A stretch of 64,000 nucleotides of DNA from Brevibacillus massiliensis (GCF_000311785.1 NZ_HE978544.1:98183-162182), one strand, 5' to 3'; positions 41,243-64,000 are shown, counted from the stretch's first letter. The notes: a model not told the origin generated them from the letters alone. Made by a program: numbers and translations.

Positions 41243-41270
41243 GCCGCTATCGTCTCACGTTGATAGCGGC
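41243..41270 (-). terminator. Terminator of the racemase operon
   Basis: GCCGCTATC and GATAGCGGC form a perfect 9-base stem with T-runs on both sides, between the racemase stop and the IclR promoter region. Confidence 0.85.
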
Positions 41271-41285
41271 AAAAAAACATCCAAA

Positions 41286-41924: not shown

Positions 41925-41926
41925 GG

Positions 41927-42754: not shown

Positions 42755-42771
42755 CATCATTACCTCCTTGA

Positions 42772-43531: not shown

Positions 43532-44598
43532 CTCCTCTCTGTTTCAAACAAATACTTGATCATCAGCTTGCCGATGGCCTCTTCTACCGGCACAAACAAC
43601 TTTTTGTTTCTCATCGGCGAGCCCAGCAGCAAATTCTCGCGCAAAACGGCAATCACCGCCGCCTTCTGCCCGTTGACGATCCGCGCCGACTCGAGCGGCA
43701 GACCGCTTTCCGCATCGAATGTCATGATCAGATCAGGGAACGTCGCCAGCCTTTTTCCCTTTGCCATGGTCATGTATTCATTCCAGAAAGTCAGCTCGAG
43801 GGAACCGATGTTCAGCCTGCCGACGTCAAATCCGCCGGTCGAGGTCAACTCGTACTGGGACACCACGCCTGTCTCCACGATTCTCCCGCGCAAGAACGAA
43901 GTCACGGCTTCGACCGCCTTCATCCCGGAGTGGGCCAGCATCTGCTCCCCGATCTGGATCGCCTGCTGGATCGCACCGGGACATCCGTTTTCCTTCACGT
44001 AGGCGACTAGTACCGGATTTCTCGCAACGGCCACCATGCCGCCCGCCTCCACAGAGGTTCGCCGCACCAGTGCAGCCATCTTCTCCAGGGAACCTCGGGC
44101 GCACATCTCGATGTACCGGCTCCCTTTTCCGCCTACGGCTGCCTGGATCGACACGTAGGATTCCAGCTCTGTCAGATTCATCGAACCCATGCTGCCCGTC
44201 GGGTGAGCCCTGCCGTTGCAAGGCGCATCCACCATGGGCAGGCCGGTCGCAGCCGACTGAAACCAACCGTTTACCGTCGTGCTGGCTCCGTTTTCATTGG
44301 TAATCAATCCGGCGATTCTGTGCTCGGAGTGCTGGAGCAGCGGCTGCAGGGCACGGGTGTAGTGAATCGGCTTGACGTACTGCTCCTGCGCCGCGGGAGC
44401 TCCGACTGCCGAGACAGTCACGACCCAGTCTCTATCATCCAGCTCATCTACTGTGACCAGCCGCGGCTCGCCGATTTCCAGCGCAAGCCTGCCCAGCTGC
44501 ATGCCTTCCTCAATCGGCCCGCCACCGCCGCCGCCAAGCACCGCGCCGCCTAATACGGCGGCCTCCATTTTGCGTTCATCCAGTGAGATAACGTCCAT
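43528..44598 (-). CDS. DUF917 family protein
   Basis: A 356-residue intact member of DUF917 (related to hydantoinase A/S-methyl thiohydantoin desulfurase): MDVISLDERKMEAAVLGGAVLGGGGGGPIEEG, TVDELDDRDWVVTVSAVGAPAAQEQYVKP, GWFQSAATGLPMVDAPCNGRAHPTGSMGSM and DLIMTFDAESGLPLESARI. These proteins usually sit beside hydantoin or peptide utilisation genes. Between the broken OPT transporter and the broken DUF1177 gene. Confidence 0.88.
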   Translation of the reverse strand: MDVISLDERKMEAAVLGGAVLGGGGGGPIEEGMQLGRLALEIGEPRLVTVDELDDRDWVVTVSAVGAPAAQEQYVKPIHYTRALQPLLQHSEHRIAGLITNENGASTTVNGWFQSAATGLPMVDAPCNGRAHPTGSMGSMNLTELESYVSIQAAVGGKGSRYIEMCARGSLEKMAALVRRTSVEAGGMVAVARNPVLVAYVKENGCPGAIQQAIQIGEQMLAHSGMKAVEAVTSFLRGRIVETGVVSQYELTSTGGFDVGRLNIGSLELTFWNEYMTMAKGKRLATFPDLIMTFDAESGLPLESARIVNGQKAAVIAVLRENLLLGSPMRNKKLFVPVEEAIGKLMIKYLFETERS

Positions 44599-44616
44599 TT
44601 TATCACCTTTGTCCTG

Positions 44617-46199
44617 TTATTTTTTCAGCGAGAAGACGGAGCTAAAGAAGCTGTACAGGGCGTCGTCGGCGATGAAACCCGCCGCCAAGATGCTCATCGA
44701 CGATTCTGCGGATGTGCCTTTCCATTTCAACACGATACCGCGAATCAGCAGACCTGCCAGAACAGCCCACCCTGCTTCCGGATAGGCAAGCAGCATACCG
44801 GTTGCAAAAAGGATTCCCAATTGGTGCTTGGAACCGCCCAGCAGTTGCAGCAAAGCGCCTGGAATCGCCCAGAGGAACAGCTCCGTGGCGACGTTGCCGG
44901 ACCACTCCTGCTTCGATCGTCGCAACGGAGACTTTATCGACCGGCGGCACGAGATTTTGCGCAAAATAACTTTTGTATGTCAAAAGCACCACCACGACAG
45001 CCACCGAGAACGCGATCATCGCAGCGATCAATTGCTGTCTCCGCCCTTCTTGTTCAAAAGCCTGATCCTTCCCGTTCCCACGGAGGATGTAGCCCGCTTT
45101 CAGATCGTAGCCCATGTCGGCAAAGGCCGGTCCGGTAGCAGCGCTAAATCCGACCACGAGTGCCAACGCGACCGGGGGAAAACCGATCACACAACCCAAT
45201 GATCAACGTGATCAAAGCGACGGCAAAAGCGGGAAACCAGCCGGAGTGCATCGCGGAAATCCCGACGATCAATTCGTGCAGATAAGCGGCGAAAGCGGCA
45301 AAGACAATAAAACCGATGATCATTCCCAGCGACATGTGCGTAATCAATCCGCTGATCACTGCCAGAACCACTGCAATAATAATGTACAAAATGAGGCCTT
45401 GCACCAGTGTGCGGGAGGTGTCTTTTTCATTTTTCGTCACAGAAGCCTGCTCTGCCGAACTGTTCCCTTTTTTCTTGAAAATCACCAGCGATACCTGAAT
45501 GAATGCGACCAGCCCTGCGCCGATCATCAGTCCGTGTGGAATGTACGAGTCCTTCAGATCGACGCCAAACAGCGTTGCGGAATACCCTTTGATCAACAGA
45601 CCGATGCCAAACATCGCAAGCGCCCACATGTTCCCGATAAACGCAACACCGAATGCCGACATCGGAATGCCCAGGATGGAACCGACGACTCCGCCTGCGA
45701 TCCCGACTCCGAGCAATCCTGCCCGCTTCCCTCCCTGGTCGCCGGCAAGGATCGATTCAGCGGTGGCTCGACCGTCCGGCCAGGTTCCCGACGCGGGAAA
45801 AACCTTCGAATCAAACAGCTTGTACAACAGAAATCCGTCGACGAACATGGCCAGCGCAGCCCCGATCAGCATCGGCAGGATCAATTCCGGTTTTCCGAAG
45901 ATGAACGGAATGCCGATCGGAATCAACAGACTGTTGGCCGCTCCGAATGTGGCTGACGAGATGGACGTTTGAATCATATTTTGGCGATGGATGGAACGAA
46001 ACTTCCGAAACAAGGTTACCGGTATTCTGGCAATGATCATGGCCAGCAGGACGCCAATAATCGCCGTATTGGCGGTAATGCCCAGGGTCAGAATCAATTG
46101 CATCCCGATGGCCGCCCCAAGGGCTGCCGTCACAATCGTCAGTACCAGTGTGCCCGGCTCGATTACTCTGGGATGCTTTTTCTGTTCCTCGTTTTTCAT
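44617..46199 (-). pseudogene. OPT-family oligopeptide transporter with two frameshifts
   Basis: Three consecutive frames make one transporter of about 525 residues. Frame 1 (46199 to about 45190) holds VIEPGTLVLTIVTAALGAAIGMQLILTLGI, RQNMIQTSISSATFGAANSLLIPIGIPFI and many helices; an extra T near 45190 shifts to GFPPVALALVVGFSAATGPAFADMGYDLKAGYILRG; a second shift near 44905 leads to ATELFLWAIPGALLQLLGGSKHQLGILFATGMLL and the stop at 44617. OPT proteins import small peptides or amino acid derivatives by proton symport. All domains are still present, so decay (or error) is recent. Confidence 0.82.
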
Positions 46200-46361
46200 A
46201 TGAACCCTCCTTTGTACCTATTATCGAACCACAGGTCCTATTTTTGATGAATACATATGCAATTATACAGACCAGGCCTGCTGCAATCAATCATAAATCT
46301 TCACCAGTTGGGACTTTCCCCAATTCTCGCTCTATTCTTTTTTTACGTCTGCAAACGCAGC

Positions 46362-46397
46362 AAAGCCGCTGGGAGATTGGCCTCCCAGCGGCTTTTT
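46362..46397. terminator. Perfect 14-base hairpin between operons
   Basis: AAAGCCGCTGGGAG and CTCCCAGCGGCTTT around ATTGGC, with a T-run on the plus strand and TTT on the minus strand. Probably terminates the decarboxylase transcript. The rest of 46200-46534 is the OPT promoter region; no further gene is visible. Confidence 0.65.
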
Positions 46398-46534
46398 CCT
46401 CATCAACTGAATCTGCGACCCGCCATAAACGGCTGGCATTTGGAGGATTTTACATATTGTCCTACTAGTTTGATATCAGCGACAATTTATATCTATACAT
46501 TTCCATGCTTGATTTCTCAAAGCAGGCAGCAGCT

Positions 46535-48205
46535 TTACTGCAGGAACACTTTTACCGTCGGATCGATATGAACATCCAGCAGGATCGGCTTCCGTTCGCC
46601 AAAGGCTTTTTGGAAAGCCGGCGCAATCTCATCCGGCGAAGTCACCTTGGCGGCTGCAATGCCAAGCCCTTCGGCTACACTTGCAAAATCAATCGGCGGA
46701 GTCAGGTCCATCCCTGGAAAATGGCTCCGTTTGGCTGATTCGCCATTGATGTTGAGAATGCCGCCCTTTAAAATCATGTAGCTCTGGTTGTTCAAGATCA
46801 CGAATACGACAGGCAGGTTGTATTTGGCGGCATTCCATAAAGCTTGAATGTAATACAGGGAGGAGCCGTCCCCGATGATGTTGACGACTCTCCGGTCGGG
46901 CAGACCGAGCTGGGCGCCGAGAGAAGCCGGCATGCCATACCCCAGTCCGCCTCCTTTTAGGGCAATCAGGCTGTCTGGCTGCTGCAAATCGAGATAGTTG
47001 TGAACGTATTTTCCCGACGTGACCGATTCGTCGACGACAAAGGCATTTTTCGGCAGGCAGCGATTCAGCTCATGGATGACTCTGGCCGGAGATAGCGGGA
47101 TGCTGTCGTACGTCTCTTCCAGTTCCTTTCGTTTTGCCGCATCTTTTTCCTGCCGCTTTGCCACGGCCTTGGCCTTGCGGGCGGCAAAATGCCTCCGCTC
47201 CTCCTCCGTTGCCTGCTGGCCGATCAGTTCGCACAGTTCCGCTAGGGCTGTCTTCGGATTGGCGATAATCGGGATATCGACAAACATATTTTTGCCAAGC
47301 TCCCACTCTCCGCTGTCAATCGCGATGACTTTCGCTTCCTTCTGCACCAAAGGCTGGTCGAAGTAGAGCAGCGGCGCTTGGCTGATCACGCCGGCAAAGA
47401 GGACGACATCAGCTTCTGCCAGCGCCTGCCGGATAAACGGCCCGTTAGGCAAAAAGCGCCCCTGAAATTGCGGATGGGTATAAGGGAAATTCAAGCGGGA
47501 AACCTGATGTTCCGCGTACACCATCGCCCCGGTCAATTCAGCCAATTCGACCAGGGCGGGGACGGCCCCGGTGCTGCCGATGCGGTCGCCCGCCACGATC
47601 ATCGGGTGGGCGGCTGACCGGATGGCTGCCGCCGCCGCCTGGATGGCCTTCAGGTCTCCGCGGACTTCTGTTGCGATCCTCGTCAAAGGGATCGGATCGG
47701 CCGCCGATTCCTGCCACATCACATCGGATGGAAAGGACAGAAACACGGGACCCATCGGTTCGGTGAGGGCTACTTTAAAGGCCCGCTGCAGCACGACGGG
47801 CAGCTCCGCGGCATTCTTCACCTCCCAGCTCCATTTCGTATAACTCTTCACCATCTCCACCATTTCGCCCCACAGCGCAGGCTCCTGTACGCCGAATCGG
47901 GTGTCCTGCTGGCCGGCGGTCACGATCAGCGGCACCCCTGCCCGGTACGCATTGTACAGATTGCCAAAGCCGTGCCCGAGACCGGCCGCCACATGCAGAT
48001 TGACCACGCCGGGCTTGCCGGTAGCCATCGCATAGCCTGCAGCCATACCGACACAAATATCCTCATGTAAAGAAAGCACATATTGAATGTCGGGATAGTT
48101 GACAAGGCCGTCGACCAGCGGCAGCTCCGTCGTTCCCGGATTGCCAAACAAATACTCTACTCCGTATTTGCGGAACGTCTCCAGTACAAAGTCTCTCGCT
48201 AACAT
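46535..48205 (-). CDS. ThDP-dependent decarboxylase (benzoylformate decarboxylase-like)
   Basis: A 556-residue ThDP enzyme with three domains. N-terminal LFGNPGTTELPLVDGL and the activating Glu in YVLSLHEDICVGMAAGYAMATGKPG; a central NAD-like domain; C-terminal ThDP/Mg motif IIGDGSSLYYIQALWNAAKYNLPVVFVILNN. The best overall resemblance is benzoylformate decarboxylase/related 2-oxo acid decarboxylases. ATG at 48205 follows GGGGTGTGC. Divergent from a GntR-type regulator with a palindromic operator between; no partner dehydrogenase is adjacent. Confidence 0.88.
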   Translation of the reverse strand: MLARDFVLETFRKYGVEYLFGNPGTTELPLVDGLVNYPDIQYVLSLHEDICVGMAAGYAMATGKPGVVNLHVAAGLGHGFGNLYNAYRAGVPLIVTAGQQDTRFGVQEPALWGEMVEMVKSYTKWSWEVKNAAELPVVLQRAFKVALTEPMGPVFLSFPSDVMWQESAADPIPLTRIATEVRGDLKAIQAAAAAIRSAAHPMIVAGDRIGSTGAVPALVELAELTGAMVYAEHQVSRLNFPYTHPQFQGRFLPNGPFIRQALAEADVVLFAGVISQAPLLYFDQPLVQKEAKVIAIDSGEWELGKNMFVDIPIIANPKTALAELCELIGQQATEEERRHFAARKAKAVAKRQEKDAAKRKELEETYDSIPLSPARVIHELNRCLPKNAFVVDESVTSGKYVHNYLDLQQPDSLIALKGGGLGYGMPASLGAQLGLPDRRVVNIIGDGSSLYYIQALWNAAKYNLPVVFVILNNQSYMILKGGILNINGESAKRSHFPGMDLTPPIDFASVAEGLGIAAAKVTSPDEIAPAFQKAFGERKPILLDVHIDPTVKVFLQ

Positions 48206-48249
48206 AAGCACACCCCGTCCGTACCAAAAATTTTGAAAATTGTCATTTT

Positions 48250-52017: not shown

Positions 52018-53640
52018 TTAGCTTGTCTCGATTTTTTCACCGACCATCATTTTAATCATGCCTTCAACCAGCTCCGGCACTTCTTCAAAAGCGCTTTTGA
52101 CGTGAAGCCGTTCCGTCCGCTTGTGGGCATCCTTCCCAAATGGCCCGACATTCAGGACCGGCGCTTGAAGCTGTTTCATCGCTTCGAACGGGATGCTGTA
52201 GCTGTCTCCCCAGACCGGTGTGTTGGTCACGAAAGCGGTCCAGCCTTCCGTTTCGTCCTGATAATTGACATAGCTGAGGTCGCAGATGCCGTTGAAGAAG
52301 TGGATCTGATGAACAGGCAAAGCAAATTTTTTCAGCCCCTGCTCCTTCAGGTATTTGATACACCTGACGACGAGTTCATCGTCGGAGGAATGAACCGCCG
52401 GATAATAAGGCGGCGCGAACAGCAAGACCATCGCCGGCGCCAGCTCCTGGCACTGAATCATCAGGGTATCTGCAATGCGAAGCGATTTTTCGCGGTCGTC
52501 CCATTCTCCGTTTGCCAGAATGTTTGCTTTGATCGCTTCGACGGAAACTGTCCCTAATTTTTTGACAGCATGTGCAAGCAGATCTTCGTAACGCAAGACA
52601 CGCACTTCTCCTACAGGTTCAATACGCTGCTCTTGGCAAATTGCCCTGTATGCTTCATTGCAAGCTTGGGCCGCTTCTTTCGCTACCATTTCGAATATAT
52701 CCATGACTTCCGCAGCGGTTCGCTTCAGCACGAACACATTGTAGAGGCTTGCGGCGCGATACGGTGTTTGAACCGAGTACTCCATTTTTAAATCTTTTTG
52801 CTGCAGGGTGACCGGAAGCGGTGTCGTCTCGCCCATTACCGTTTCCCGGAAACGTTTGTTCCACTCCATGCGCTGGGTCAAAAACGAGGCGATGTAATTG
52901 GCGGTGATCCCGCTGAGCGGTTCGCCGACATGCGTCTCTTTCCCGTAAAACAGGGCAGACGGCATGATTTTGCCGATGGTCCCTGAATAGACGTAATAAT
53001 TGTGGTCTCCCGGTCCTTGCGGAAACACCGGCTCCCCGTTTAAGAAGAGCTGATAGTCAAGTTCGTGCTCTTCCTTCAACTCCAATAAGGTGGTGACGGC
53101 AGCTCGCATGCCGGCCGAATTGACTTCCTCATCCGGCACGGTCAGCAAGAGGAGATTAATCGGCCATCGTTCGACAGACGCCTTTTCAATCAGCCCCATG
53201 TGCATCACGAGTCCCATTTTCATATCCATCGTGCCCCGGCCGAACAAATACTGACCAGACGCCAGGTCATGCCGGGCCTCTTCCGGCAGATCATCGATCC
53301 TTCCGTATAGCAGCCGGGTCAATTCCTCCGGCTGGTAAGCAAAAGGTTCGAGATCTCCATACTCTTCTGTATTCACCGTATCAAAATGACTGATGAGCAC
53401 GATGGTTTTGGCGGTGTCGGAATGCTTGTATAAAGCCGTTAAAAAACGCCTGCCAAGATCGGCGTCGTGAAGCTTCAGGCAATCGGGATGTTGCTGAAAA
53501 TACGCCAATTCCTGAAGTTTTGCCTGCACTTTTAGCGGAAAGTCGCGCTCTCCCTCTGTCAGCGTCATGCTTTTCCAGCTTACCGCTTCACACAATAACC
53601 TGCGCCGCGCTTCTGGCGTTCCCCATCTGAGCTGTGTCAT
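52018..53640 (-). CDS. rocB: M20-family peptidase, RocB-like
   Basis: A 540-residue zinc-type M20 hydrolase like RocB of the Bacillus arginine-catabolism regulon. Metal-site motifs: LISHFDTVNTEEYGDLEPF, GRGTMDMKMGLVMHMGLI and LLTVPDEEVNSAGMRA with the general-base Glu-Glu, and late His in GPFGKDAHKRTERL. The reaction of RocB is not established; hydrolysis of an acylated or modified arginine derivative is plausible. Last gene of the operon, 20 bases after the permease. Confidence 0.88.
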   Translation of the reverse strand: MTQLRWGTPEARRRLLCEAVSWKSMTLTEGERDFPLKVQAKLQELAYFQQHPDCLKLHDADLGRRFLTALYKHSDTAKTIVLISHFDTVNTEEYGDLEPFAYQPEELTRLLYGRIDDLPEEARHDLASGQYLFGRGTMDMKMGLVMHMGLIEKASVERWPINLLLLTVPDEEVNSAGMRAAVTTLLELKEEHELDYQLFLNGEPVFPQGPGDHNYYVYSGTIGKIMPSALFYGKETHVGEPLSGITANYIASFLTQRMEWNKRFRETVMGETTPLPVTLQQKDLKMEYSVQTPYRAASLYNVFVLKRTAAEVMDIFEMVAKEAAQACNEAYRAICQEQRIEPVGEVRVLRYEDLLAHAVKKLGTVSVEAIKANILANGEWDDREKSLRIADTLMIQCQELAPAMVLLFAPPYYPAVHSSDDELVVRCIKYLKEQGLKKFALPVHQIHFFNGICDLSYVNYQDETEGWTAFVTNTPVWGDSYSIPFEAMKQLQAPVLNVGPFGKDAHKRTERLHVKSAFEEVPELVEGMIKMMVGEKIETS

Positions 53641-53660
53641 GACTCCATATCCCCTTCAAC

Positions 53661-55079
53661 TTATAATGGATCAGCGTCCATACTTGTGATGTCTTTCTGC
53701 TTTTTCGCATGTTTAAAGTGGTAATACAGGAAACACGCTAGTAAAAATCCGATGCCGATCAGCAAACTGACGATTTGCGTCGGATCAAATGCTAAAAATA
53801 TCAGGATGGATACGCAAAAGACGATACAAACAATGGGAATGAGCGGATAAAACGGCACTTTGTACTGCAGATCTTCTACTCTCCCCCCTGCCCGCACGTA
53901 TTTGCGCCGAAACATCAGCTGCGAAAAAGCGATGCCAATCCATGAAATCGTAACAGAAATCCCGGCAATTGACATCAACAAAACGAATACCGTGTCGGCT
54001 GCGATTACACTGGTCAGCAGCGATAGCAGGGAAAAACAGATCGTAAACGCCAGCGCGGAAAACGGAACCTTCCGCTTTGACAGTCTGCCAAACAGCTTTG
54101 GCGCCATTCCCTCGCCCGCCATCGCCCACAGCAGGCGGGTTGACGCGTAAATGCAGGAATTCCCCACGGATAAAATGGCGGTCAGGATCACGAAGTTCAT
54201 GATGTCCGGCGCAAACGGAATGCCCGCCAGATCCATGAGAGTCACAAATGGGCTCTCCAACAATCCCAGTTCAGCCGATGGGAAAATGGCAGCCAAAATG
54301 ACGATCGACGCGACGTAAAACACGATGATTCGAAACAGCACGTTCCGGATTGCACGGGGAATGTTCTTTTGCGGATTTTCGCTCTCTCCGGCAGCAATTC
54401 CGATCAGTTCCGACCCTTGGTAGGAGAAGATCACATTCATCATCGTGACGAAGAGGATGACAAACCCCGCCGGAAACAGGCCGGCCGGCGCCAGATTTGC
54501 CAGAAATGGAGCCGGGCGGTCGGCCAGGGGAATCATGCCGAAAATAGCGCCAAAACCGATGATGATAAAGAGCATGACGGCCAGCACTTTGATCCCGGCA
54601 AACCAGTACTCTGCCTCCGCGAAGCCCCTTGTGGTCAGGGCGTTGATCACAAACAGGATAACGATAAAAATCGCGCACCAAAGCCAAATCGAGATGCCCG
54701 GAAACCATCGCTGCATCAGTATGCCTGCGGCTGTAAATTCCACTCCGGCCGTTGTAGCCGACCCGACGAAATACATCCAGCCCAATGAAAAACCGGCGGA
54801 AGGACTGATGAATTTGCTGGCGTACGTCTGAAACGAGCCGGTAACGGGCATGTAGACAGCGAGTTCCCCCAAGCACACCATGACCAAATAGAGAATCAAT
54901 CCGCCGAACAAATAACTGAGCAAGGCTCCGCCCGCTCCCGCTTCGTGAATGGTATAGCCGGCGTTTAAAAACAATCCTGTACCAATTACTCCCCCGAGGG
55001 ACAACATAAACAAGTGGCGGCTCTTCATCGAGCGCTTCAACTGATTTTGCTGCAGGTCCTGATCGGTCATGGTTCTCAC
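53661..55079 (-). CDS. Basic amino acid permease (RocE/LysP-like)
   Basis: A 472-residue APC permease with 12 helices. Signature LKRSMKSRHLFMLSLGGVIGTGLFLNAGYTIHEAGAGGALLSYL, EAEYWFAGIKVLAVMLFI, and SYQGSELIGIAAGESENPQKNIPRAIRNVL. The group includes RocE, RocC and LysP, which carry arginine, ornithine or lysine. Position between deiminase-fold enzymes and RocB makes arginine or a methylated arginine the likely cargo. Confidence 0.9.
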   Translation of the reverse strand: MRTMTDQDLQQNQLKRSMKSRHLFMLSLGGVIGTGLFLNAGYTIHEAGAGGALLSYLFGGLILYLVMVCLGELAVYMPVTGSFQTYASKFISPSAGFSLGWMYFVGSATTAGVEFTAAGILMQRWFPGISIWLWCAIFIVILFVINALTTRGFAEAEYWFAGIKVLAVMLFIIIGFGAIFGMIPLADRPAPFLANLAPAGLFPAGFVILFVTMMNVIFSYQGSELIGIAAGESENPQKNIPRAIRNVLFRIIVFYVASIVILAAIFPSAELGLLESPFVTLMDLAGIPFAPDIMNFVILTAILSVGNSCIYASTRLLWAMAGEGMAPKLFGRLSKRKVPFSALAFTICFSLLSLLTSVIAADTVFVLLMSIAGISVTISWIGIAFSQLMFRRKYVRAGGRVEDLQYKVPFYPLIPIVCIVFCVSILIFLAFDPTQIVSLLIGIGFLLACFLYYHFKHAKKQKDITSMDADPL

Positions 55080-55112
55080 ACCTCTCTTAGGATGGCCGGG
55101 ACAAGTTCCAAC

Positions 55113-55880
55113 TTAAAACCGCAGCGACAAGCAGCTCAAGCCGCCGTCCAATTTGCGGAATTCAGACATCTCCAGTTCAATCGTCTGATAACCCGCTTCG
55201 TTTATCTTTTGTTTCGTTTGGGGATAGCCAGCCGGAATGATGACGTAATCATTCACACGGATGCAATTCGCCGCGTACTCTTCTTCAGGCGGAACAATGA
55301 TTTTCGTATATTCGCGAAAATCCGGATGCTCAACGAATTCGCCCGCCACGACAATGACTTGGTTGCCCAAATAAGAGATGCCCGTTTTTAAGTGAAAGAA
55401 TTTTTCCAACGGAACAATCGTCGCCTGGTAGTTTTCAGACTGCAAAATCTCTTTTAATTGCTCGGCCCCCTCCAGGTTCGTTCGATCGGACAAGCCAATA
55501 TAGAAATGGCGGTCTATTTGCAGCACGTCTCCGCCGTCAAGGGTGCCGGGAGATGTAATATGGTACATTTTTTCGTAATGGGTTTTGAGCACTGGCTCCA
55601 TTTCCCTGATTTCTCCATTACGGGAAGGAGCGCCGGGATTCGAGATGACAGCGAATTCGGGAGTGAGCACCGCCGTATCCTCTACAAACGTGGAGTCCGG
55701 GAACTCCGGGCTTGGCGGAAGGACGATCACTTCCACCCCGCAGGTTTTCAGGGCTTCCCTGTAAGCTTGATGCTGCTGCAGCGCTTTTTCATATATGGGC
55801 GTTCCGAGATTTGCCGTGGTCAGCCCATGGATATAGCTTTCTCCGGGTGTTTTGACAATCGTCTTTGTAAACATAAACAT
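55113..55880 (-). CDS. Dimethylarginine dimethylaminohydrolase-like enzyme
   Basis: A 255-residue amidinotransferase-fold hydrolase. DDAH-type motifs: PEFPDSTFVEDTAVLTPEFAVISNPGAPSRNGE, GTLDGGDVLQIDRHFYIGLSDRTN, catalytic His in FFHLKTGISYLGNQ and catalytic Cys in LDGGLSCLSLRF near the C-terminus. DDAH converts asymmetric dimethylarginine to citrulline and dimethylamine. ATG at 55880 follows GAGGAGGGATT. The fold also covers arginine deiminases, but the motif order fits DDAH best. Confidence 0.85.
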   Translation of the reverse strand: MFMFTKTIVKTPGESYIHGLTTANLGTPIYEKALQQHQAYREALKTCGVEVIVLPPSPEFPDSTFVEDTAVLTPEFAVISNPGAPSRNGEIREMEPVLKTHYEKMYHITSPGTLDGGDVLQIDRHFYIGLSDRTNLEGAEQLKEILQSENYQATIVPLEKFFHLKTGISYLGNQVIVVAGEFVEHPDFREYTKIIVPPEEEYAANCIRVNDYVIIPAGYPQTKQKINEAGYQTIELEMSEFRKLDGGLSCLSLRF

Positions 55881-55906
55881 GCGAATCCCTCCTCGTGATA
55901 TTCGGC

Positions 55907-56779
55907 TTATGTGCGGATAACCGGACAGGTCAGACAAGTCGGTCCGCCTGTTCCCAAGTAAGATATTTCACGCCCTTTGTATTCGTACACCGTCGCCCCC
56001 GCCTCGATTAATCGCTGCTTGGTGTAAGGGTTTTCAGAAAGCATCACGCAAACCCGGGGCGCCAGCGCGAGAACATTGCAGCCGAGATTCTGGTATTCGG
56101 CTTCAGGCACTTCGATCAGTTGAATTCCCCGCTCGATCAGGTACTGCCTGAAAAAGACCGGCATCAACCTCGAATAGACGACGGCCAGGTCGGAATCGAC
56201 GAGACTGATGAACGACATGAGATGGAGGCATTCGGCTTCCCCCTGATCATGCGGAAGCGGGACAACGATACATTCATCCACCACATCCTTGGTCATTTCC
56301 TTGATTTGCCGAATCGCTTCATCATTCGTTCGATAGCCGCGGCCGACAGCAAGCGTCCGATCGTCCAGCCAGACCAGGTCTCCCCCGTCCGCGACAGCAC
56401 TGCCGGTCAGCTCTCCTACGATGGGAATGTTTTTCTCCTGCAAAAACCGTTTAAAGGCAGCAGCTTCGGGCTGACGCAGCGTTTTCCCCGATCGTAAAAG
56501 TATCGCCCCCTTCGGAGTAAACTTGACAGGGTCATGGGCATAGATGGAATCCAGTCCGACACCTTCTGAAGCGGGCAAAAATTCAATGCGCTCCACATGC
56601 TTCCTTAAGATGTCGAGAAACTGCTCGTATTCATTCAACGCTTCGACAAAATCGGGTTCTTCGATAAAGTTGAATGTTTTCCACTCTTTGCTGAGATGCT
56701 CTTGACTGACAAAAGCTTCCTTGGGATGTTTTACGATGACGGTGTGAAGCTTTTTGTACATCGACTGACAGTAATTCAA
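55907..56779 (-). CDS. Arginine deiminase/DDAH-fold enzyme, second paralogue
   Basis: A 290-residue member of the amidinotransferase superfamily: YAHDPVKFTPKGAILLRSGKTLRQPE, VADGGDLVWLDDRTLAVGRGYRTNDEAI, catalytic His in GEAECLHLMSFISLVD and catalytic Cys in GGPTCLTCPVIR near the end. It is only distantly similar to the gene downstream, so the two probably act on different guanidino compounds or in sequence. First gene of the operon, read from the divergent promoter region shared with the IclR gene. Confidence 0.82.
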   Translation of the reverse strand: MNYCQSMYKKLHTVIVKHPKEAFVSQEHLSKEWKTFNFIEEPDFVEALNEYEQFLDILRKHVERIEFLPASEGVGLDSIYAHDPVKFTPKGAILLRSGKTLRQPEAAAFKRFLQEKNIPIVGELTGSAVADGGDLVWLDDRTLAVGRGYRTNDEAIRQIKEMTKDVVDECIVVPLPHDQGEAECLHLMSFISLVDSDLAVVYSRLMPVFFRQYLIERGIQLIEVPEAEYQNLGCNVLALAPRVCVMLSENPYTKQRLIEAGATVYEYKGREISYLGTGGPTCLTCPVIRT

Positions 56780-56892
56780 GTCTGCGCCCCCTTATTTTTC
56801 ACATATCGGAACGGGATTCCTTTGACAGGAATTTTCTACGTTGATCTTATAGCAGTTGCCTTCCAGTGTCAATATATTCTTAATTCACAGAA

Positions 56893-56904
56893 CCATTTAA
56901 ATGG
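56893..56904. promoter_or_regulatory. Candidate IclR operator
   Basis: CCATTTAAATGG, a perfect palindrome extended by GAA and AAC flanks, midway between the divergent deiminase operon and IclR gene. Confidence 0.5.
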
Positions 56905-56958
56905 AACCATAATTTCAGTTATAGTATTGCTAGGGAAACTTGAATAGGGGATGAATAT

Positions 56959-57702
56959 ATGCAAACGATTGATCGGGCCATGCAGGTAACAGCAATCCTT
57001 GCCGGAAACGAGACAAAAAAGTGGTTTTCCATTACGGAGCTATCCAAAGAGTGCGATTTGCCCGCAAGCACGCTGCATCGTCTGCTGCAATCGATGAAGA
57101 AACACGGGCTGATCCAGCAAGATCCGGATACCAAACTCTATTCATTGGGGAATACCTGGCTTGAATACGGTTTGCAGATGTACGATACGATCGATTTTGT
57201 CAGTCTGGTTCGTCCGGAAATGGAGAAGTTGATGCTTGAGGTTGAAGAAAGCGTCTACTTCAGCAAACCGATCGGATTGGAATCGTTAATCGTCGAACGA
57301 ATCGACTGCCCGACAAATTCGATTCGCGTGTACGACCAATTGGGAATCCGGATCCCGATGACCATCGGGGCCGCAAATAAAGTCATGCTGGCACATATGC
57401 CGCATGATGATGCCTTGAAAATCGTGAACTCGCTGCTGAAAAAAGAGGAGACGGAGAACTTTATCCAGATGCTGCGCGATGTGAAAAAGGCGGGGTACGG
57501 AATCAGCCACGGGGAGAAGACAAAAGGCACCTCGTCAGTGGCCGCACCTGTCTTTAATCAGCTGAATGAACTGTTGGGAGCCATCAGCATCGGCTATGTC
57601 AAGTTCAATGTGACAGAGGAAAGAGAGAACTTTCTAATCGAAAAAGTGCTCGCATACGGGGCGCGTATCTCCGCTAAACTGGGGTACAAGCCAAAAGAGT
57701 AG
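56959..57702 (+). CDS. IclR-family regulator of the arginine-type operon
   Basis: A 247-residue regulator: winged helix IDRAMQVTAILAGNETKKWFSITELSKECDLPASTLHRLLQSMKKHGLIQQDPDTKLYSLG and effector domain (EVEESVYFSKPIGLESLIVERIDCP, IPMTIGAANKVMLAHMPHDDALKIV, GYGISHGEKTKGTSSVAAPVFNQLNELLGAISIGY). Divergent from the four-gene catabolic operon it likely controls. The effector may be the imported guanidino compound (inference). Confidence 0.92.
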   Translation: MQTIDRAMQVTAILAGNETKKWFSITELSKECDLPASTLHRLLQSMKKHGLIQQDPDTKLYSLGNTWLEYGLQMYDTIDFVSLVRPEMEKLMLEVEESVYFSKPIGLESLIVERIDCPTNSIRVYDQLGIRIPMTIGAANKVMLAHMPHDDALKIVNSLLKKEETENFIQMLRDVKKAGYGISHGEKTKGTSSVAAPVFNQLNELLGAISIGYVKFNVTEERENFLIEKVLAYGARISAKLGYKPKE

Positions 57703-57710
57703 AACAAGCG

Positions 57711-57748
57711 AAACGACCGTCCGGCTCCTACGGCGGACGGTCGTTTTT
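57711..57748. terminator. Terminator between IclR and the sigma-54 operon
   Basis: AAACGACCGTCCG pairs with CGGACGGTCGTTT plus T-run, with A-run on the other side, between convergent genes. Confidence 0.9.
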
Positions 57749-57769: not shown

Positions 57770-58210
57770 TTACACTTTCATGTTTGAAGACTGTACCACA
57801 TCTCCGTTTCTGTACAGCAGCCCCTGTACGGCCGCCACGGTAAGGACGAGGACAGCATCCATAAAACCGATCAGCAAAATGGGGACCTCCAGCATGACAC
57901 CGAGCATCGGTCCCATCAGACCGCCCATCATTCCGGATGCCATTCCCTCGATAGCTGCGAGCAACCCGACCGGTTTTCCCAGGAGAAATCCCGCCGCCAT
58001 CCCGGCCGTGACGGCGATGACCGTAGCCAGTGTCAAATCATGTAGACAGACGATGGACAGTGTAAGCCCCAAGGCTGTACTGGAGGCGGCAGCGACGGCC
58101 ATGGTGGCAACCATTCCCTCCATGCCTGAAAGCTGTGCCCGACGCTTGTACATGCAGATCACATAACAAGCTGTGATGAACAGAACGATGGCGATATTCG
58201 CGGCGATCAA
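57770..58210 (-). CDS. Small multi-pass membrane protein, function unknown
   Basis: A 146-residue protein with about four or five membrane segments (LIAANIAIVLFITACYVICM, GMVATMAVAAASSTALGLTLSIVC, LATVIAVTAGMAAGFLLGKPVGLLAAIEGMASGMMGGLMGPMLGVML, ILLIGFMDAVLVLTVAAVQGLL), very rich in Gly and Met in the third block. TTG at 58210 is chosen since GGAGGAGGGG precedes it and longer starts overlap the binding-protein gene. Last gene of the sigma-54 operon. I do not recognise a family; a Met-rich GxxxG segment could handle a metal or accompany the transporter. Confidence 0.65.
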   Translation of the reverse strand: MIAANIAIVLFITACYVICMYKRRAQLSGMEGMVATMAVAAASSTALGLTLSIVCLHDLTLATVIAVTAGMAAGFLLGKPVGLLAAIEGMASGMMGGLMGPMLGVMLEVPILLIGFMDAVLVLTVAAVQGLLYRNGDVVQSSNMKV

Positions 58211-58247
58211 GCCAACCCCTCCTCCATTATCATGGGTAGCCAGCCGA

Positions 58248-59336
58248 TTAGTACAGGCTGTCAATCCACCCTGTCTCGTCAAGTTCCTCCACGATGCTGT
58301 TGTCGACGAGATCTGCTGGTTTCATCCGCTTCACTTCTTCACTTGTCGAGTTGTGTAAAAAGAACTGTACAGAAGCGTCAGACACGAGCGGTTTCTTGGG
58401 AAACGTCGGAAGATTGACTTCATATGTCTTTACAGCCATGTCCTCATCGTCAATTCCGGTCCATTTCATAATCGATTTGACAGCCAAGTCCCGGTCCTTC
58501 GCAATCAGTGCATTCGCCTCGATGAGCGCTGCTACAATGGCTTTGGCCACTTCCGGATGCTGCCCGTAATACTCGCGCGTCATCCCGATTCCTGCAAGCA
58601 GCACCTCGGTATTGGAGAAGTCGTAAACCTTTTGGTAACCCATTTCATCCATCTTAAACGAGGTAGGCGGTGCGACGACGTAGAATGCCCCCTCCCCCTT
58701 TAAAAAGGCGGCGGTTCGGTCGCCTTCGCCGCCCATGTAGAGCAGTTTGACGTCTCTGCCGACCGTTAAACCCTGCCCGGCGACAAATGACTGTGCCAGG
58801 TGGTCGTACAGCGAACCTTCCGCTGCCGTAATCATCGTTTTTCCCTGCAGGCTTGCCTTTACATCCGACGGATTTACGTCCTTTTGCGCGTAGACGTAAA
58901 CTGCCGGCCGGTCGGCTACCGCCGCGAGGATGACGGAATCGTGACCTGCAGCCTTCGATTTGCCTACTGCGTCCACGCCGACCAGTCCCGCCTGAATTCC
59001 ATTGCTGGTGATCGCCTCCTGCAGGCGGGGCGTTCCAGCGACGTAGATCACTTCGGCCTGAAGCCCGTACTTCTCCAGCAAGCCGGCATCCTTGGCAACC
59101 CACAGCGGCAGCATGGACGCACCTTGGGTCGGGTAGCCGATTTTAATCGATACGGCAGGGCTGACAGGCTTGGGGGCCTTCTCGTCTTCCTCCGCTTGGC
59201 CGCTATTCGCCGCGGCCGGAGTGCTCGGTGTTGGTTGATGGGAATGTCCGGTTTGTACAGGCTCAGGTGATCCGCAGCCCGTTAAAATCAACAACATTGC
59301 GATCAGGAAAAACACGCCTGGTCCAGCTCGTCTCAT
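58248..59336 (-). CDS. SsuA/TauA/NMT1-type ABC binding lipoprotein
   Basis: A 362-residue lipoprotein: signal MRRAGPGVFFLIAMLLIL, lipobox TGC, a Pro/Ala-rich linker with HSHQ, then the NMT1/THI5-like fold (IKIGYPTQGASMLPLWVAKDAGLLEKYGLQAEVIYVAGTPRLQEAITSNGIQAGLVGVDAV, GQGLTVGRDVKLLYMGGEGDRTAAFLKGEGAFYVVAPPTS). The family binds sulfonates, nitrate, pyrimidine precursors or aromatic acids. The ATG at 59336 follows GGGGGA. Unusually it is encoded after the enzyme gene and not before the permease. Confidence 0.9.
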   Translation of the reverse strand: MRRAGPGVFFLIAMLLILTGCGSPEPVQTGHSHQPTPSTPAAANSGQAEEDEKAPKPVSPAVSIKIGYPTQGASMLPLWVAKDAGLLEKYGLQAEVIYVAGTPRLQEAITSNGIQAGLVGVDAVGKSKAAGHDSVILAAVADRPAVYVYAQKDVNPSDVKASLQGKTMITAAEGSLYDHLAQSFVAGQGLTVGRDVKLLYMGGEGDRTAAFLKGEGAFYVVAPPTSFKMDEMGYQKVYDFSNTEVLLAGIGMTREYYGQHPEVAKAIVAALIEANALIAKDRDLAVKSIMKWTGIDDEDMAVKTYEVNLPTFPKKPLVSDASVQFFLHNSTSEEVKRMKPADLVDNSIVEELDETGWIDSLY

Positions 59337-59372
59337 GCAGGTATCCCCCATTCTGGTTCCTTTTTCCGTATC

Positions 59373-60869
59373 TCAGCCGTGGTGGTGGCCGCAGCAGCTT
59401 CGGACGTTCCCCATCTCCCAGTGACTGTGTTTGCAGTACTTGGGGTCTGCCCCGACCATTTTCATGAACAGATGATGCCACTTTTGGCAGATGTTCAATT
59501 CAGTCAGGGTCCAATCGGTCGGGTCGTTGGCGTAATGCTGCCAATAGTCCCCTTCCACGTTAATCCCCGGAACTGCCGGAATCCACGATTCTGTCAGCAG
59601 CAGATCAGGGTCGCCGTACTTCGCGGCAATCTTGCGAATGTCCGGATCGTCCAGTGCCAAGAGCCGCCCGTCTTCGATCAGCTTTTCTGTGCCGCCGCCG
59701 ATCATCTCGCAAGTCACCGTGGCAAAATACAAGTGGATATGCCAATGGCCCACCGGGAGCCCCATTTTTGCTGCTTGCCGCTCCAGACTGCTGGAGATCA
59801 CCGTTCCAAAACCTATGTGGATACAACCGCTGCGCATCCGTTCGTACAGACAGCTCAGCCATCCCTTCAGAAAGTCCTTCCGCGGCCGGTGAATGTGCGG
59901 ATTTGTCCCGATGGAGGCCTCCCACCAGTAGAGCAGCCCTTTCCCCGGGAACCCCGGATATTCTAAGTGGTTGGTTTCGTCCATCAATTTTCGGAGTTTG
60001 TCTCCGAACAAGCCGCCTTCGTGAATCTCCGTGATCTTGCTGTTTTCCACCTTCAGTTGAATCCACGGCACCGGGCCGATGTGATTCATCGTCCCGGCAA
60101 TCACGCCGTGTCCGTCTTCTTTGGGAATGTACATCCACGGACGGCCGAGCACATGCCCGGGCAGATACGTTCTGCCGAAGTTTTTATTGTGCGTCCAGAA
60201 TTTCTCGACGAGCTCTTCGTTGAAGAACTCACGGTTTCGATCGTAGTAGTCGTCGTGGTTGGTATACGTCAGATCGGTGCCCTCGGGGTCGACGATGCGA
60301 ATGCGGCGGGCATGGCGAATCCGCTTCCAGGTCCACTTGTCGATGGCGTCAATCACTTCGTACGGTATCGTATGGGCTGGCGAGGCCAACAGCTCCGGCG
60401 TAATGAACGGCATCCGCTGTATTTTGATCTTGGCGTCGCACAAAACGGGACCGCCGTATCCCCAGAGGAGTTTGTCGTACTTGCCTTCCTGTTCGATTCG
60501 CTCCCATTCATCCATCCACTCCGCCAGTTCTTTGGTACGTGCCAGGTAGTACTCTACCTCGTTATGCCCCTCCCAGGAAGGAATCGGGCCTTTATCCGCC
60601 ATCAAAATCTCGTACTTGGTGTTGTACTTCTCCAGAATTCGCTTGCACGCTTCGATGACCATCGGATCATGCCAGTTATCGACACGAAGCAGTACGCGCT
60701 CGCCGGGCTGCAGATCCCAGGCCGCGTGCAACCCCTGGCTGTAGGGCCGCTTGGCCACTTCTTCAAGATACGGCATTAACTGCTCCACACTGTTCACCGT
60801 TACGTATGGGGGGCAGCGCGGCGGATACTTTTCGATTAAAGGCGGTTCGGTAAAATTTGGTTTATTCAT
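59373..60869 (-). CDS. Putative metalloenzyme distantly related to M29 peptidases/NicX
   Basis: A 498-residue cytoplasmic protein without signal peptide. The N-terminal part LQPGERVLLRVDNWHDPMVIEACKRILEKYNTKYEILMA resembles the first domain of M29 aminopeptidases and NicX-type 2,5-dihydroxypyridine dioxygenases; the C-terminal half holds the matching ligand blocks: EASIGTNPHIHRPR (318-330), GCIHIGFGTV (348-357) and GHWHIHLYF (374-382), where M29 has H-x-D. It is about 130 residues longer than either family and ends in a His/Cys tail CCGHHHG. It may hydrolyse or oxidise the compound imported by the co-encoded ABC transporter. Product not identified; AGGAGG precedes ATG. Confidence 0.6.
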   Translation of the reverse strand: MNKPNFTEPPLIEKYPPRCPPYVTVNSVEQLMPYLEEVAKRPYSQGLHAAWDLQPGERVLLRVDNWHDPMVIEACKRILEKYNTKYEILMADKGPIPSWEGHNEVEYYLARTKELAEWMDEWERIEQEGKYDKLLWGYGGPVLCDAKIKIQRMPFITPELLASPAHTIPYEVIDAIDKWTWKRIRHARRIRIVDPEGTDLTYTNHDDYYDRNREFFNEELVEKFWTHNKNFGRTYLPGHVLGRPWMYIPKEDGHGVIAGTMNHIGPVPWIQLKVENSKITEIHEGGLFGDKLRKLMDETNHLEYPGFPGKGLLYWWEASIGTNPHIHRPRKDFLKGWLSCLYERMRSGCIHIGFGTVISSSLERQAAKMGLPVGHWHIHLYFATVTCEMIGGGTEKLIEDGRLLALDDPDIRKIAAKYGDPDLLLTESWIPAVPGINVEGDYWQHYANDPTDWTLTELNICQKWHHLFMKMVGADPKYCKHSHWEMGNVRSCCGHHHG

Positions 60870-60902
60870 TGTACTTCCTCCTCGTTCACGGTTTTACGTC
60901 TT

Positions 60903-61685
60903 TTATTCACTGCGCCATTTTGCCAGGCGGTTTTCTCCCCATTTGATTGCTCCGGTAATCATCAGCCCCATCAGGACGATGACGACGATTCCCACAAACA
61001 CGCGATCGATATTAAAATTGGCCGACGACTGAGCGACAAAATAACCGACGCCGCCGGTCGAGACGAACATCTCCGCAGCTACGACCCCGACTAAAGCCTG
61101 GCCCATCCCGATTCGCAGTCCGGATACGATATAAGGCAGGGCCCCTGGCAGCGCGACGGTGCGAAACGTCTGCAGCGGTGTCGCCCCGAACGCCCCGGCC
61201 ACTCGCAGCAGATTGCGGTCAAGGGAATGCACGCCGATGATGGTGTTCAAAATGATCGGGAAAAAGGAGGCGAGAAACACGATCAACACTTTGCTCGCGA
61301 AGCCAACTCCAACCCACAACGTGATCAGCGGAAGCAAGACGATCCGCGGCGTGCCGAGCATCGCCGTCAGGAAAGGATCAAATGCCGCTCCCAGCGGACG
61401 GTACCAGCCAAACACCAACCCGAGAACCACCGCACTCACAGCCGCCAATCCGAAGCCGACGGTAAAATGGCCAAGCGTAAACAACAGGTGCTCCGTCAGG
61501 ACTCCGTTCTGGAACAGCGTGATGCAGACCTGGACGATCTTAAGCGGAGAACTGAGAAAGATCGGGTTGATCAGGCCGATACGGTACAAAATCTCCCAGA
61601 TTGCCAAAAAGGAAACCACGGCAATCGATCCGATATTCCTTGCTGCCCACCCGGTATGGTCAAAAGAAAGCCGTGTGCGAGCCAT
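60903..61685 (-). CDS. ABC permease, SsuC/TauC type
   Basis: A 260-residue permease with six helices and the EAA loop VAGAFGATPLQTFRTVALPGALPYIVSGLRIGMGQALVGVVAAEMF. It belongs to the sulfonate/nitrate/pyrimidine-precursor family. The ATG overlaps the ATPase stop (TGATG). Confidence 0.93.
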   Translation of the reverse strand: MARTRLSFDHTGWAARNIGSIAVVSFLAIWEILYRIGLINPIFLSSPLKIVQVCITLFQNGVLTEHLLFTLGHFTVGFGLAAVSAVVLGLVFGWYRPLGAAFDPFLTAMLGTPRIVLLPLITLWVGVGFASKVLIVFLASFFPIILNTIIGVHSLDRNLLRVAGAFGATPLQTFRTVALPGALPYIVSGLRIGMGQALVGVVAAEMFVSTGGVGYFVAQSSANFNIDRVFVGIVVIVLMGLMITGAIKWGENRLAKWRSE

Positions 61686-62476
61686 CAGTTTGCCTCCCTT
61701 AATTCTTCGCTGTCATGTGCGATGAACATCCAAATATGTGCTTCATATGCTTGAAATTCACTGCTTCGCTTTATCTCCAGCGGGCGCGGACGGGGAAGCC
61801 GAATCTCGGTCGTTTCACAAATCCGTCCCGGCCTGGCGCTCATCACCACGACCCGGTCAGCCAGGTAAACGGCCTCCCCGATATCGTGGGTTACCAGAAT
61901 AACCGTCTGACTGGTGGCCGCCCAAATCCGCAGCAGCTCCACCTGCATGTACTCCCGCGTCTGGGCGTCCAATGCCCCAAACGGCTCATCTAACAGCATC
62001 AGGCTTGGTTCAATCGCCAGTGCTCTGGCCAAATTGACACGCTGCTGCATTCCTCCGGACAGCTGGTATGGATAATGGGAAGAGAATCCATCCAAACCGA
62101 CTAAATGAAGCAGTTCTTCCCCCCGTTCCCTCCGTTTTTTCTTGTCGACCCCTGCCAGTTCCAATCCATAGATGATGTTGTCCAACGTCGTTCGCCAGGG
62201 AAACAGCGAGGCTTGCTGAAAAACGACCCCTCGATCCCGGCCCGGGCCTTTGATCGCCCGGCCATTCAACAGGATTTCTCCGTGTTTGATCGGCTGAAAC
62301 CCGGCGATTGCGCCAAGCAGCGTCGATTTCCCGCAGCCGCTTGGCCCGACGATGCAGACGAACTCCCCTTCTCTCACTTTCAAGGAGAGGTCGGAAACAG
62401 CGGTTACCTCCTTTCCATCCTTTAGCGGGTACGTAATCGTTACATTACGGGCATGAAGCTTGGTCAGATCGTTCAA
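61685..62476 (-). CDS. ABC ATPase, SsuB/TauB type
   Basis: A 263-residue ATPase: Walker A GPSGCGKST, signature LSGGMQQRVNLARAL, Walker B LMLLDEPFGALDAQTREYMQ and VTHDIGEAVYLADRV. TTG at 62476 is taken because it follows AAGGAGG and lies downstream of the sigma-54 promoter; longer in-frame starts lie in the promoter. First gene of the operon. Confidence 0.92.
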   Translation of the reverse strand: MNDLTKLHARNVTITYPLKDGKEVTAVSDLSLKVREGEFVCIVGPSGCGKSTLLGAIAGFQPIKHGEILLNGRAIKGPGRDRGVVFQQASLFPWRTTLDNIIYGLELAGVDKKKRRERGEELLHLVGLDGFSSHYPYQLSGGMQQRVNLARALAIEPSLMLLDEPFGALDAQTREYMQVELLRIWAATSQTVILVTHDIGEAVYLADRVVVMSARPGRICETTEIRLPRPRPLEIKRSSEFQAYEAHIWMFIAHDSEELREAN

Positions 62477-62531
62477 ACAGTGTTCGCCTCCTTGTCGTTG
62501 ATGTGCTGTTGCCTGCTCGTACAATGCAAGC

Positions 62532-62548
62532 TGCAAAATCAATGCCAA
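62532..62548 (-). promoter_or_regulatory. Sigma-54 promoter
   Basis: On the minus strand TTGGCATTGATTTTGCA: TGGCA at -24 and TTGCA at -12 with exactly ten bases between GG and GC, the required spacing for sigma-54 (SigL). It is about 55 bases before the ATPase start. Confidence 0.85.
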
Positions 62549-62596: not shown

Positions 62597-62618
62597 ATTG
62601 TTTCAAATTTGAAACAAT
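62597..62618. promoter_or_regulatory. Upstream activator palindrome
   Basis: A perfect 22-base palindrome with arms ATTGTTTCAAA and TTTGAAACAAT, centred about 62 bases upstream of the -24 element. A weaker half, TGTTTCGAAA, follows at 62631-62640. This is the usual enhancer position for a sigma-54 activator, here the protein encoded directly upstream. Confidence 0.75.
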
Positions 62619-62725: not shown

Positions 62726-64000
62726 TTATAATTCTCCCCTGCACAGCCGCCACAGTGTCGTGCGGCTCACACCCAGCCGCTTTGCCAGTTCAGTGCGATT
62801 CGAGTACCTGCAGGCTAATGCCTCGACCAACTGTTGTGTCATCTCCTTCAGACTGCCGGGGACGACCATGATTCGATCGTCTGCCGGACTCTCCGCCGAC
62901 AACAGCGCCGCATGTGAAGTCATGGAATCGAGAATTTGCTGCATCGTCTCCGTTTCCTCCCCGCCTGTACCAGTGAGGATGACCCACCTCTCAACCATGT
63001 TTTCCAGTTCTCGAACATTCCCCGGCCAATGATATCGCAGACACCAATCGATTAAATCCGCCGGGAACGGTTTCGCGGTTAAACCTGTCAAACCCTCGTG
63101 CTTTTTTACGAGATGAACGATCAACGCGGGAATGTCATCCAATCGCTTCCGCAGCGGCGGCAATCTCAGGGGCAGCACATTAAGCCGGTAGAAAAGGTCG
63201 GGGCGAAACCGGCCGGCTTTCATTTCGACTTCCAGTTCAACGTTCGTTGCCGCAACAATTCGCACGTCAATCGGAATCACCCGGTCCCCACCAACGCGCA
63301 TGACCTCCTTCTCCTGCAAGACACGGAGGAGGCGCATCTGCAAGTGCGGTGAAATGCTTCCGATCTCATCCAAAAAGATCGTTCCGTTGTGGGCTTGTTC
63401 GAACACCCCGGAACGGCCGCCTTTTCTGGCACCGGTAAAAGCGCCATCGGTATAGCCGAACAATTCGCTTTCCAGCAGTTGTTCCGGAAGTGCGGAGCAG
63501 TTGACGGCGACAAACGGTCCCTTGCTGCGCCTTGCGTTAGCCTGATGCATGCTCTGGGCCAAAATCTCTTTTCCTGTACCGCTCTCCCCGTAGATTAAGA
63601 CAGTCGAATCCATCGCCCCGTACTTCCTCGCCAGTTCGACAACCTGCTTCATCCCGGAATCTTCTACGACCAAATCATCCAGTGAAAATTTTGAGACTAA
63701 TCCTTTTTTGTTCAAGTCTTTACGGATCTCCCGTTCCATATGTTGTATGCGTTGGATGTCATTCACTGTCACGACGGTACCAATCCGTTCCGTTCTGACG
63801 GCAATGTGTTCGGTGTACACCTTCAGTTCGGTTCCTTTGTTAATGACGACCTGATTTGTCAGTTCTCCGTCACCCGACTGCTGATACTCCTCCTCCCCGC
63901 CGGAGGGGAGAATCCCCAGTTCGGGCAGCGAGCGTCCGATGATCTGGCTGCTTGGCATCTGGAGCAGCTTTTCGATCTTCCGGTTGCACAATGTTACGGT
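62726..64000 (-). CDS. Sigma-54-dependent transcriptional activator, N-terminus beyond the window
   Basis: The frame is open to the right edge (TVTLCNRKIEKLLQMPSSQI is a PAS-like segment), then AAA+ domain: Walker A GESGTGKE, the sigma-54-contact loop GAFTGA, Walker B GTIFLDEIGS, VMRVGGDRVIPIDVRIVAATN, FRPDLFYRLNVLPLRLPPLR, and a Fis-type HTH at the end NRTELAKRLGVSRTTLWRL. The architecture (sensor, PAS, AAA+, HTH) is like PrpR/RocR-type activators. Together with the palindrome and -24/-12 promoter it should switch on the ABC-enzyme operon in response to a ligand, probably the imported compound. Confidence 0.95.
   Translation of the reverse strand, partial: TVTLCNRKIEKLLQMPSSQIIGRSLPELGILPSGGEEEYQQSGDGELTNQVVINKGTELKVYTEHIAVRTERIGTVVTVNDIQRIQHMEREIRKDLNKKGLVSKFSLDDLVVEDSGMKQVVELARKYGAMDSTVLIYGESGTGKEILAQSMHQANARRSKGPFVAVNCSALPEQLLESELFGYTDGAFTGARKGGRSGVFEQAHNGTIFLDEIGSISPHLQMRLLRVLQEKEVMRVGGDRVIPIDVRIVAATNVELEVEMKAGRFRPDLFYRLNVLPLRLPPLRKRLDDIPALIVHLVKKHEGLTGLTAKPFPADLIDWCLRYHWPGNVRELENMVERWVILTGTGGEETETMQQILDSMTSHAALLSAESPADDRIMVVPGSLKEMTQQLVEALACRYSNRTELAKRLGVSRTTLWRLCRGEL

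Follow-up and report, generated by a model that had tools for sequence, protein, structure and literature searches.

To our knowledge, only peptidases and pyridine dioxygenases have been characterised in the superfamily considered here. The NicX/Hpo 2,5-dihydroxypyridine 5,6-dioxygenases (PDB entries 7cup and 7cn3) are proteins of ~350 residues, in which Fe is coordinated by His265, Ser302, His318, and Asp320 (PMC7910607), and all enzymes of peptidase family M29 (AmpT, AmpS, and PepS; PF02073) conserve the catalytic set Glu-Glu-His-Tyr-His-Asp (EEHYHD) (PMC7023490). A 64,000-nucleotide stretch from Brevibacillus massiliensis (GCF_000311785.1, NZ_HE978544.1:98183-162182; hereafter, the window) carries five minus-strand genes (62548 to 57770, in reading order) coding for an ABC-transporter ATPase, a permease, a 498-residue enzyme (ENZ), a lipoprotein, and a Met/Gly-rich membrane protein of 170 residues (MEM). 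ENZ defines a new family inside this known superfamily, with an altered metal site, and stands in a known kind of operon. Our overall reading, to which we assign a probability of roughly 50%, is that the locus is a sigma-54-controlled catabolic unit in which ENZ is probably a ring-cleaving metalloenzyme, possibly loaded with copper.

An earlier reading of the sequence alone (the sequence-only reading) had placed ENZ outside the standard families, and indeed we found no match in Pfam, NCBIfam, or PDB sequences. The same reading had suggested a relation to M29 and NicX, with structure prediction as the check. An AlphaFold (AF2) model of ENZ built from 15 sequences (predicted local distance difference test, pLDDT, 71; predicted template-modeling score, pTM, 0.78) gave eight matches below E = 0.001 in a Foldseek search against the PDB, all of them NicX or M29 aminopeptidases. 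The best match was NicX (7cup; 8.6e-12), and the M29 structures 1zjc, 4icr, 4icq, 2ayi, and 4ics followed at 3.8e-10 to 3.3e-9. Besides the fold, ENZ and NicX have in common a GTD motif and, within the H-x-D metal motif, the His; ENZ differs in having an N-terminal extension, an insertion near residues 205–235, and a C-terminal extension with a Cys/His tail. The profile–profile match between the two covers 107 columns with E = 0.0019 and a probability of only 14.5%.

The metal site was located in an alignment of ENZ with NicX, two M29 groups, and bridging proteins from Streptomyces, Nonomuraea, Haladaptatus, and a Firmicute, on which three MAFFT modes agree. Glu317 of ENZ (E317) is aligned with Glu316 of M29 and His265 of NicX, H351 with His345 of M29 (NicX has no ligand there), and H377 with His378 of M29 and His318 of NicX. 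The Asp of the H-x-D motif, present in 38 of 38 relatives, is replaced by His (H379) in all 15 ENZ proteins. The HIGFG and HWHIH blocks pointed out in the sequence-only reading are both present (H351-IGFG and H375-W-H377-I-H379), and their His residues are invariant in 14 relatives. One Glu and three His (E317, H351, H377, and H379), invariant in 15/15 ENZ proteins, occupy ligand columns of the superfamily, and by strong homology are predicted to form a putative 3-His/1-Glu metal site. Six search peptides, including HWHIHLYF, were used to collect the family; as most loci read HWHLH, HWHVH, or HFHIH and were hence retrieved via the other peptides, this choice of peptides does not account for the invariance of H377 and H379. 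A ligand set of the same kind is known from cupin 3-His/1-Glu enzymes (quercetinase and others), which have an unrelated fold, the parallel being functional only and not genealogical. These cupins are metal-promiscuous, with copper enzymes among them (PMC4416304, PMC4019311).

Despite the shared fold, the defining residues of both known families are incomplete in ENZ. Among the six M29 catalytic residues, only Glu316, His345, and His378 are kept, Tyr352 being replaced by Ile, Asp380 by His, and Glu250 by Tyr/Phe or a gap in all 15 proteins; with three of six residues missing, identity as an M29 peptidase was rejected, and the window's ENZ gave no match to the M29 family of Pfam even at E = 0.1. 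Three of the four Fe ligands of NicX are changed (His265, Ser302, His318, and Asp320 correspond to E317, G353, H377, and H379), and a search of PDB sequences gave no match between ENZ and 7cn3; an orthologue of NicX was rejected on these two grounds. ENZ is thus a superfamily member that lacks the defining set of residues of either family, so that the proposed M29/NicX relation holds for the fold, with its coherent putative metal ligands, and fails for the full residue set of either group. The His/Cys tail that the same reading had described (CKHSHWEMGNVRSCCGHHHG in the window's ENZ) is conserved in kind, a Cys/His-rich C-terminus being found in 14 of the 15 proteins, mostly ending in CxCG or CCG motifs; the most divergent ENZ (locus L018) lacks it.

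A peptide scan of ~85,000 species genomes recovered 16 ENZ loci, 64–82% identical, in Paenibacillus, Bacillus, Lysinibacillus, Planococcus, alkaliphilic Bacillaceae, and alpha- and betaproteobacteria, with the 82% identical copy in Paenibacillus naphthalenovorans. No relative was found among 99 related Bacilli, and profile searches gave none in 400 sampled Bacilli genomes beyond the window's own and none in 399 Pseudomonadota genomes beyond one already known, from which we conclude that the family is rare. The high identity across phyla and the patchy spread suggest horizontal transfer. Two copies are damaged, that of Alkalihalobacillus deserti (L019:10052-11158) by an in-frame loss of ~110 residues after HWHVH and that of Halalkalibacter alkalisediminis (L020:426-1593) by a frameshift. 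The closest sequence outside the family is WP_266737569 of Streptomyces NBC_00376 (24% identity, E = 2e-4). Like ENZ, this protein and its relatives stand beside a transporter (MFS) and a regulator (GntR) gene; unlike ENZ, they keep the Asp of H-x-D, have His in place of E317, and lack the tail. ENZ represents an unannotated enzyme family common to Firmicutes and Proteobacteria, with a different metal site.

The sigma-54 operon with an ABC importer, the 498-residue enzyme, and the Gly/Met-rich membrane protein, as reported by the earlier reader, is confirmed. Its genes are separated by ~20–35 bases, an operon-like spacing, and lie behind an exact -24/-12 element:

62726..64000, minus strand, sigma-54 activator, C-terminal 424 of 662 residues, continuing past the window end (full gene with PrpR_N, PAS, AAA, and HTH)
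62598..62617, no strand assigned, perfect 20-base palindrome TTGTTTCAAATTTGAAACAA (0 mismatches), candidate activator site, ~50 bases further upstream than the -24 element
62532..62548, minus strand, sigma-54 -24/-12 promoter TTGGCATTGATTTTGCA, exact match (0 mismatches)
61685..62548, minus strand, ABC-transporter ATPase (PF00005), mechanical open reading frame (ORF) with the likely true start at a TTG near 62478 behind GGAGG
60903..61685, minus strand, ABC-transporter permease of SsuC/TauC type (PF00528)
59373..60869, minus strand, ENZ, M29/NicX-superfamily metalloenzyme of 498 residues with putative ligands E317, H351, H377, and H379 and a Cys/His-rich C-terminus
58248..59351, minus strand, NMT1/SsuA-like substrate-binding lipoprotein (PF13379/PF09084)
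57770..58282, minus strand, MEM, Met/Gly-rich membrane protein of a copper-associated family without a name, likely true start at a TTG near 58213 behind GGAGGAGGGG

The promoter lies across the 5' end of the mechanical ATPase ORF, for which reason the later start is preferred. With one mismatch permitted, the sigma-54 pattern is expected about once per 64 kb by chance, and the assignment hence rests on the exactness and the position of the promoter. The full activator gene (662 residues) is found in the genome at L095:2409-4397, preceded upstream by genes for an SDR, an enoyl-CoA hydratase, and an acyl-CoA dehydrogenase, which may or may not belong to the unit. Further past the right end of the window (L095:9255-11138, minus strand), the first ~160 residues of an acyl-CoA ligase domain run on into a sigma-54 activator within a single ORF, as would result from a deletion fusing two genes. 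Downstream of the operon, an IclR gene is oriented towards it, and an inverted repeat (GACCGTCCG...CGGACGGTC) is located between them at ~57715-57745.

The operon contains the families of all three subunits of SsuABC/TauABC/NMT1-type importers. Nevertheless, the importer is SsuABC-like only in a loose sense: its scores are far under the NCBIfam cut-offs for each of the sulfonate, taurine, nitrate, and Sao systems (SsuA_fam, 49.3 against 163.5; SsuC, 105 against 347; SsuB, 183 against 395), and its identity as a sulfonate importer was rejected. Nothing supports in particular either the sulfonate or the thio-compound that the sequence-only reading had offered as possible substrates.

The neighborhoods of ENZ in other genomes, suggested earlier as a check on the linkage to importers, bear out this association, since transporter genes of several unrelated classes are present near ENZ in 14 of the 16 loci. 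NMT1-type ABC genes occur at L006, L007, L009, L010, and L018 (the window's importer type at 51–73% identity in L006, L009, and L010, and a permease remnant immediately before ENZ in L007), another ABC type at L015, ABC genes with Peripla_BP_6 binding proteins at L016, TTT components at L012, L013, L016, L019, and L021, TRAP at L014 and L017, and MFS at L008 and L010. No transporter was identified at L011, and a contig end interrupts L020. The claim of a dedicated SsuABC importer accordingly stands as to association with an importer but not as to class, which varies by lineage (ABC, TTT, TRAP, HAAT, and MFS). Of the two outcomes that the sequence-only reading had named as refuting its proposal, an unrelated fold and homologues lacking importers, neither occurred. 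A literature search for M29-like enzymes accompanied by TTT transporters turned up nothing. The regulators also differ, being LysR in Firmicutes, GntR in Proteobacteria, IclR at L018, and sigma-54 in the window. In three alphaproteobacterial loci (L014, L015, and L017), a gene for an S-adenosylmethionine (SAM) methyltransferase directly follows ENZ.

Two Firmicute loci (Bacillus OV166 and Planococcus glaciei) extend into clusters with two PTE-family hydrolases, a thiolase-like protein, a CocE/NonD hydrolase, an MBL protein, a pcaIJ/scoAB-type CoA-transferase, flavin monooxygenases, and what we take to be a DUF35-like protein. Among solved structures, both flavin monooxygenases of OV166 come closest to 6-hydroxynicotinate 3-monooxygenase, so that NicC-like hydroxylases stand in the cluster of an ENZ relative, a parallel to NicX. 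In Planococcus, a gentisate-dioxygenase-like cupin is encoded ~20 kb from ENZ. The setting is one of aromatic-acid catabolism. It is in relatives, and not in the window, that the unit has its longest version, which includes hydrolases, a flavin hydroxylase, a CoA-transferase, and a thiolase, and the complete catabolic unit claimed for the window was not borne out.

The Gly/Met-rich membrane protein of the sequence-only reading is present, but its affiliation to a copper-type family had been overlooked. MEM belongs to no Pfam family, and a fold search against the PDB gave no match (best E = 1.3). Its profile found relatives in 54 of 201 sampled Bacilli genomes (about a quarter). Among 27 relatives fetched, 11 are ~300 residues long with a C-terminal extension, which contains Cupredoxin_1 in all three tested; several others end in His/Met-rich tails. 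One MEM-family gene is followed by that of an HMA (CopZ-like) chaperone. MEM is homologous to membrane proteins that are rich in Met and carry a cupredoxin domain at the C-terminus. Its family, probably of copper type, is widespread in Bacilli but without a name; cupredoxin fusions are frequent in it, and no Pfam model covers its membrane part. In the window's taxonomic family, one relative is encoded by the last gene of a carbon monoxide (CO) dehydrogenase operon that has the active-site sequence AYRCSFR and coxD-, coxE-, coxG-, and xdhC/coxI-type genes. In Oligotropha, the copper-containing site is assembled with the help of coxD, E, and F (PMC4240915). A general rule of MEM beside CO dehydrogenase was rejected, and the case is kept as a single instance. 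The AYRCSFR-type enzyme of that relative (L108:1491-3896) is 92% identical to one in the window's own genome (G000:C7:229151-231523), and only the relative's operon ends with a copper-type membrane protein.

A tree of 35 MEM proteins, with 200 bootstrap trees, unites seven ENZ-linked MEMs in a single clade (100/99) and places the window's MEM elsewhere, together with a non-ENZ MEM (96/85). As a single origin of the pairing is allowed by none of the 200 bootstrap trees, ENZ must have been joined to the MEM family at least twice. In Alteribacillus, moreover, a CtaG-like gene follows ENZ in the place of MEM, CtaG being a copper-related factor for cytochrome oxidase assembly. That ENZ came to stand next to a membrane protein of copper type on three independent occasions speaks for a functional link between the two, and the copper-type affiliation of MEM is the strongest clue to the cofactor of ENZ.

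In the mechanism that we propose, the PrpR-type activator would sense a small organic ligand and turn on the operon at the sigma-54 promoter, as its sequence indicates, and the ABC importer, judging from its family, would take up a small acid, probably an aromatic or N-heteroaromatic one. ENZ would then attack the substrate in the cytoplasm at its 3-His/1-Glu site. Given the NicX fold, the loss of M29 residues, and the aromatic context, the reaction would most likely be an O2-dependent oxidative ring cleavage, as in NicX, with products that may enter CoA-dependent degradation, as the clusters of relatives suggest. MEM and the Cys/His tail may help to load the metal, for which copper is the clear prediction; copper loaded in this manner has, in our judgment, somewhat below even odds. 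The whole combination, a cytoplasmic copper-dependent ring-cleaving enzyme with the NicX/M29 fold, a cupin-like 3-His/1-Glu site, and a copper-supplying MEM on its own operon, is unlikely; if true, it would surprisingly place ENZ among the very few bacterial cytoplasmic copper enzymes besides Mo/Cu CO dehydrogenase.

Several observations weigh against the catabolic reading or its copper component. Copper enzymes are rare in the bacterial cytoplasm. The window's MEM has no His tail, MEM adjoins CO dehydrogenase in only 1 of the 12 genomes having that enzyme, and Proteobacterial ENZ loci have no MEM-family membrane protein, so that MEM is not essential to ENZ. Besides Cu, sites with three His and one carboxylate accept Fe, Ni, and Mn (PMC4019311, PMC4416304). 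No ring hydroxylase is encoded next to ENZ in the window, and the TM-scores of the Foldseek matches are modest (0.34–0.40 by query and up to 0.52 by target; NicX, 0.38/0.52), as expected from the 90–150 extra residues of ENZ. ENZ might instead be a dioxygenase that cleaves rings with Fe(II), as NicX does, the tail and MEM serving general metal homeostasis or dealing with a metal-chelating substrate. This would agree with the closest fold and with the flavin hydroxylases of the OV166 relative, as 6-hydroxynicotinate 3-monooxygenase makes the substrate of NicX. We nevertheless consider this reading unlikely, as it leaves unexplained the repeated recruitment of copper-type membrane proteins and as E317, G353, and H379 replace His265, Ser302, and Asp320 of NicX (PMC7910607), with H351 in addition.

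ENZ might also be a hydrolase of M29 type (amidase, peptidase, or lactonase) that depends on a metal and attacks a conjugate brought in by the importer. In that case E317, H351, and H377 would be the M29 ligands retained within the same superfamily, and the PTE and CocE/NonD genes of relatives would be a fitting context; the absence of Glu250, Tyr352, and Asp380 from all 15 proteins, set against a catalytic set universal in M29 (PMC7023490), and the lack of a linked peptide transporter make this distinctly improbable. An importer, a copper-type membrane protein, and a metal-binding tail in one operon would also suit the handling of a copper chelator, with the complex taken up, its ligand degraded by ENZ, and the copper removed or kept by MEM. 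This we regard as very improbable, since other ENZ loci have TRAP or TTT transporters, which carry small carboxylates, and no copper gene, and since the Firmicute relatives lie in aromatic-catabolism clusters.

Elsewhere in the window, a second orphan catabolic cluster (40354-48211, minus strand) codes for IclR, an Asp/Glu racemase, AroM, an S-Me-THD/DUF917 family protein, and a TPP enzyme, together with an OPT transporter, apparently frame-broken near 45150, and an M29/NicX-like protein whose gene is split over two frames, the C-terminal part (41927-42448) keeping H-x-D. Beside it, a truncated TnpB/OrfB-like transposon protein was recognised by eye from the translation (39631-40209, minus strand). 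The operon adjoining that of ENZ (52018-57702) is of an arginine/dimethylarginine type and comprises two tandem ADI/DDAH-like genes, an amino-acid permease, an M20 enzyme, and an IclR regulator.

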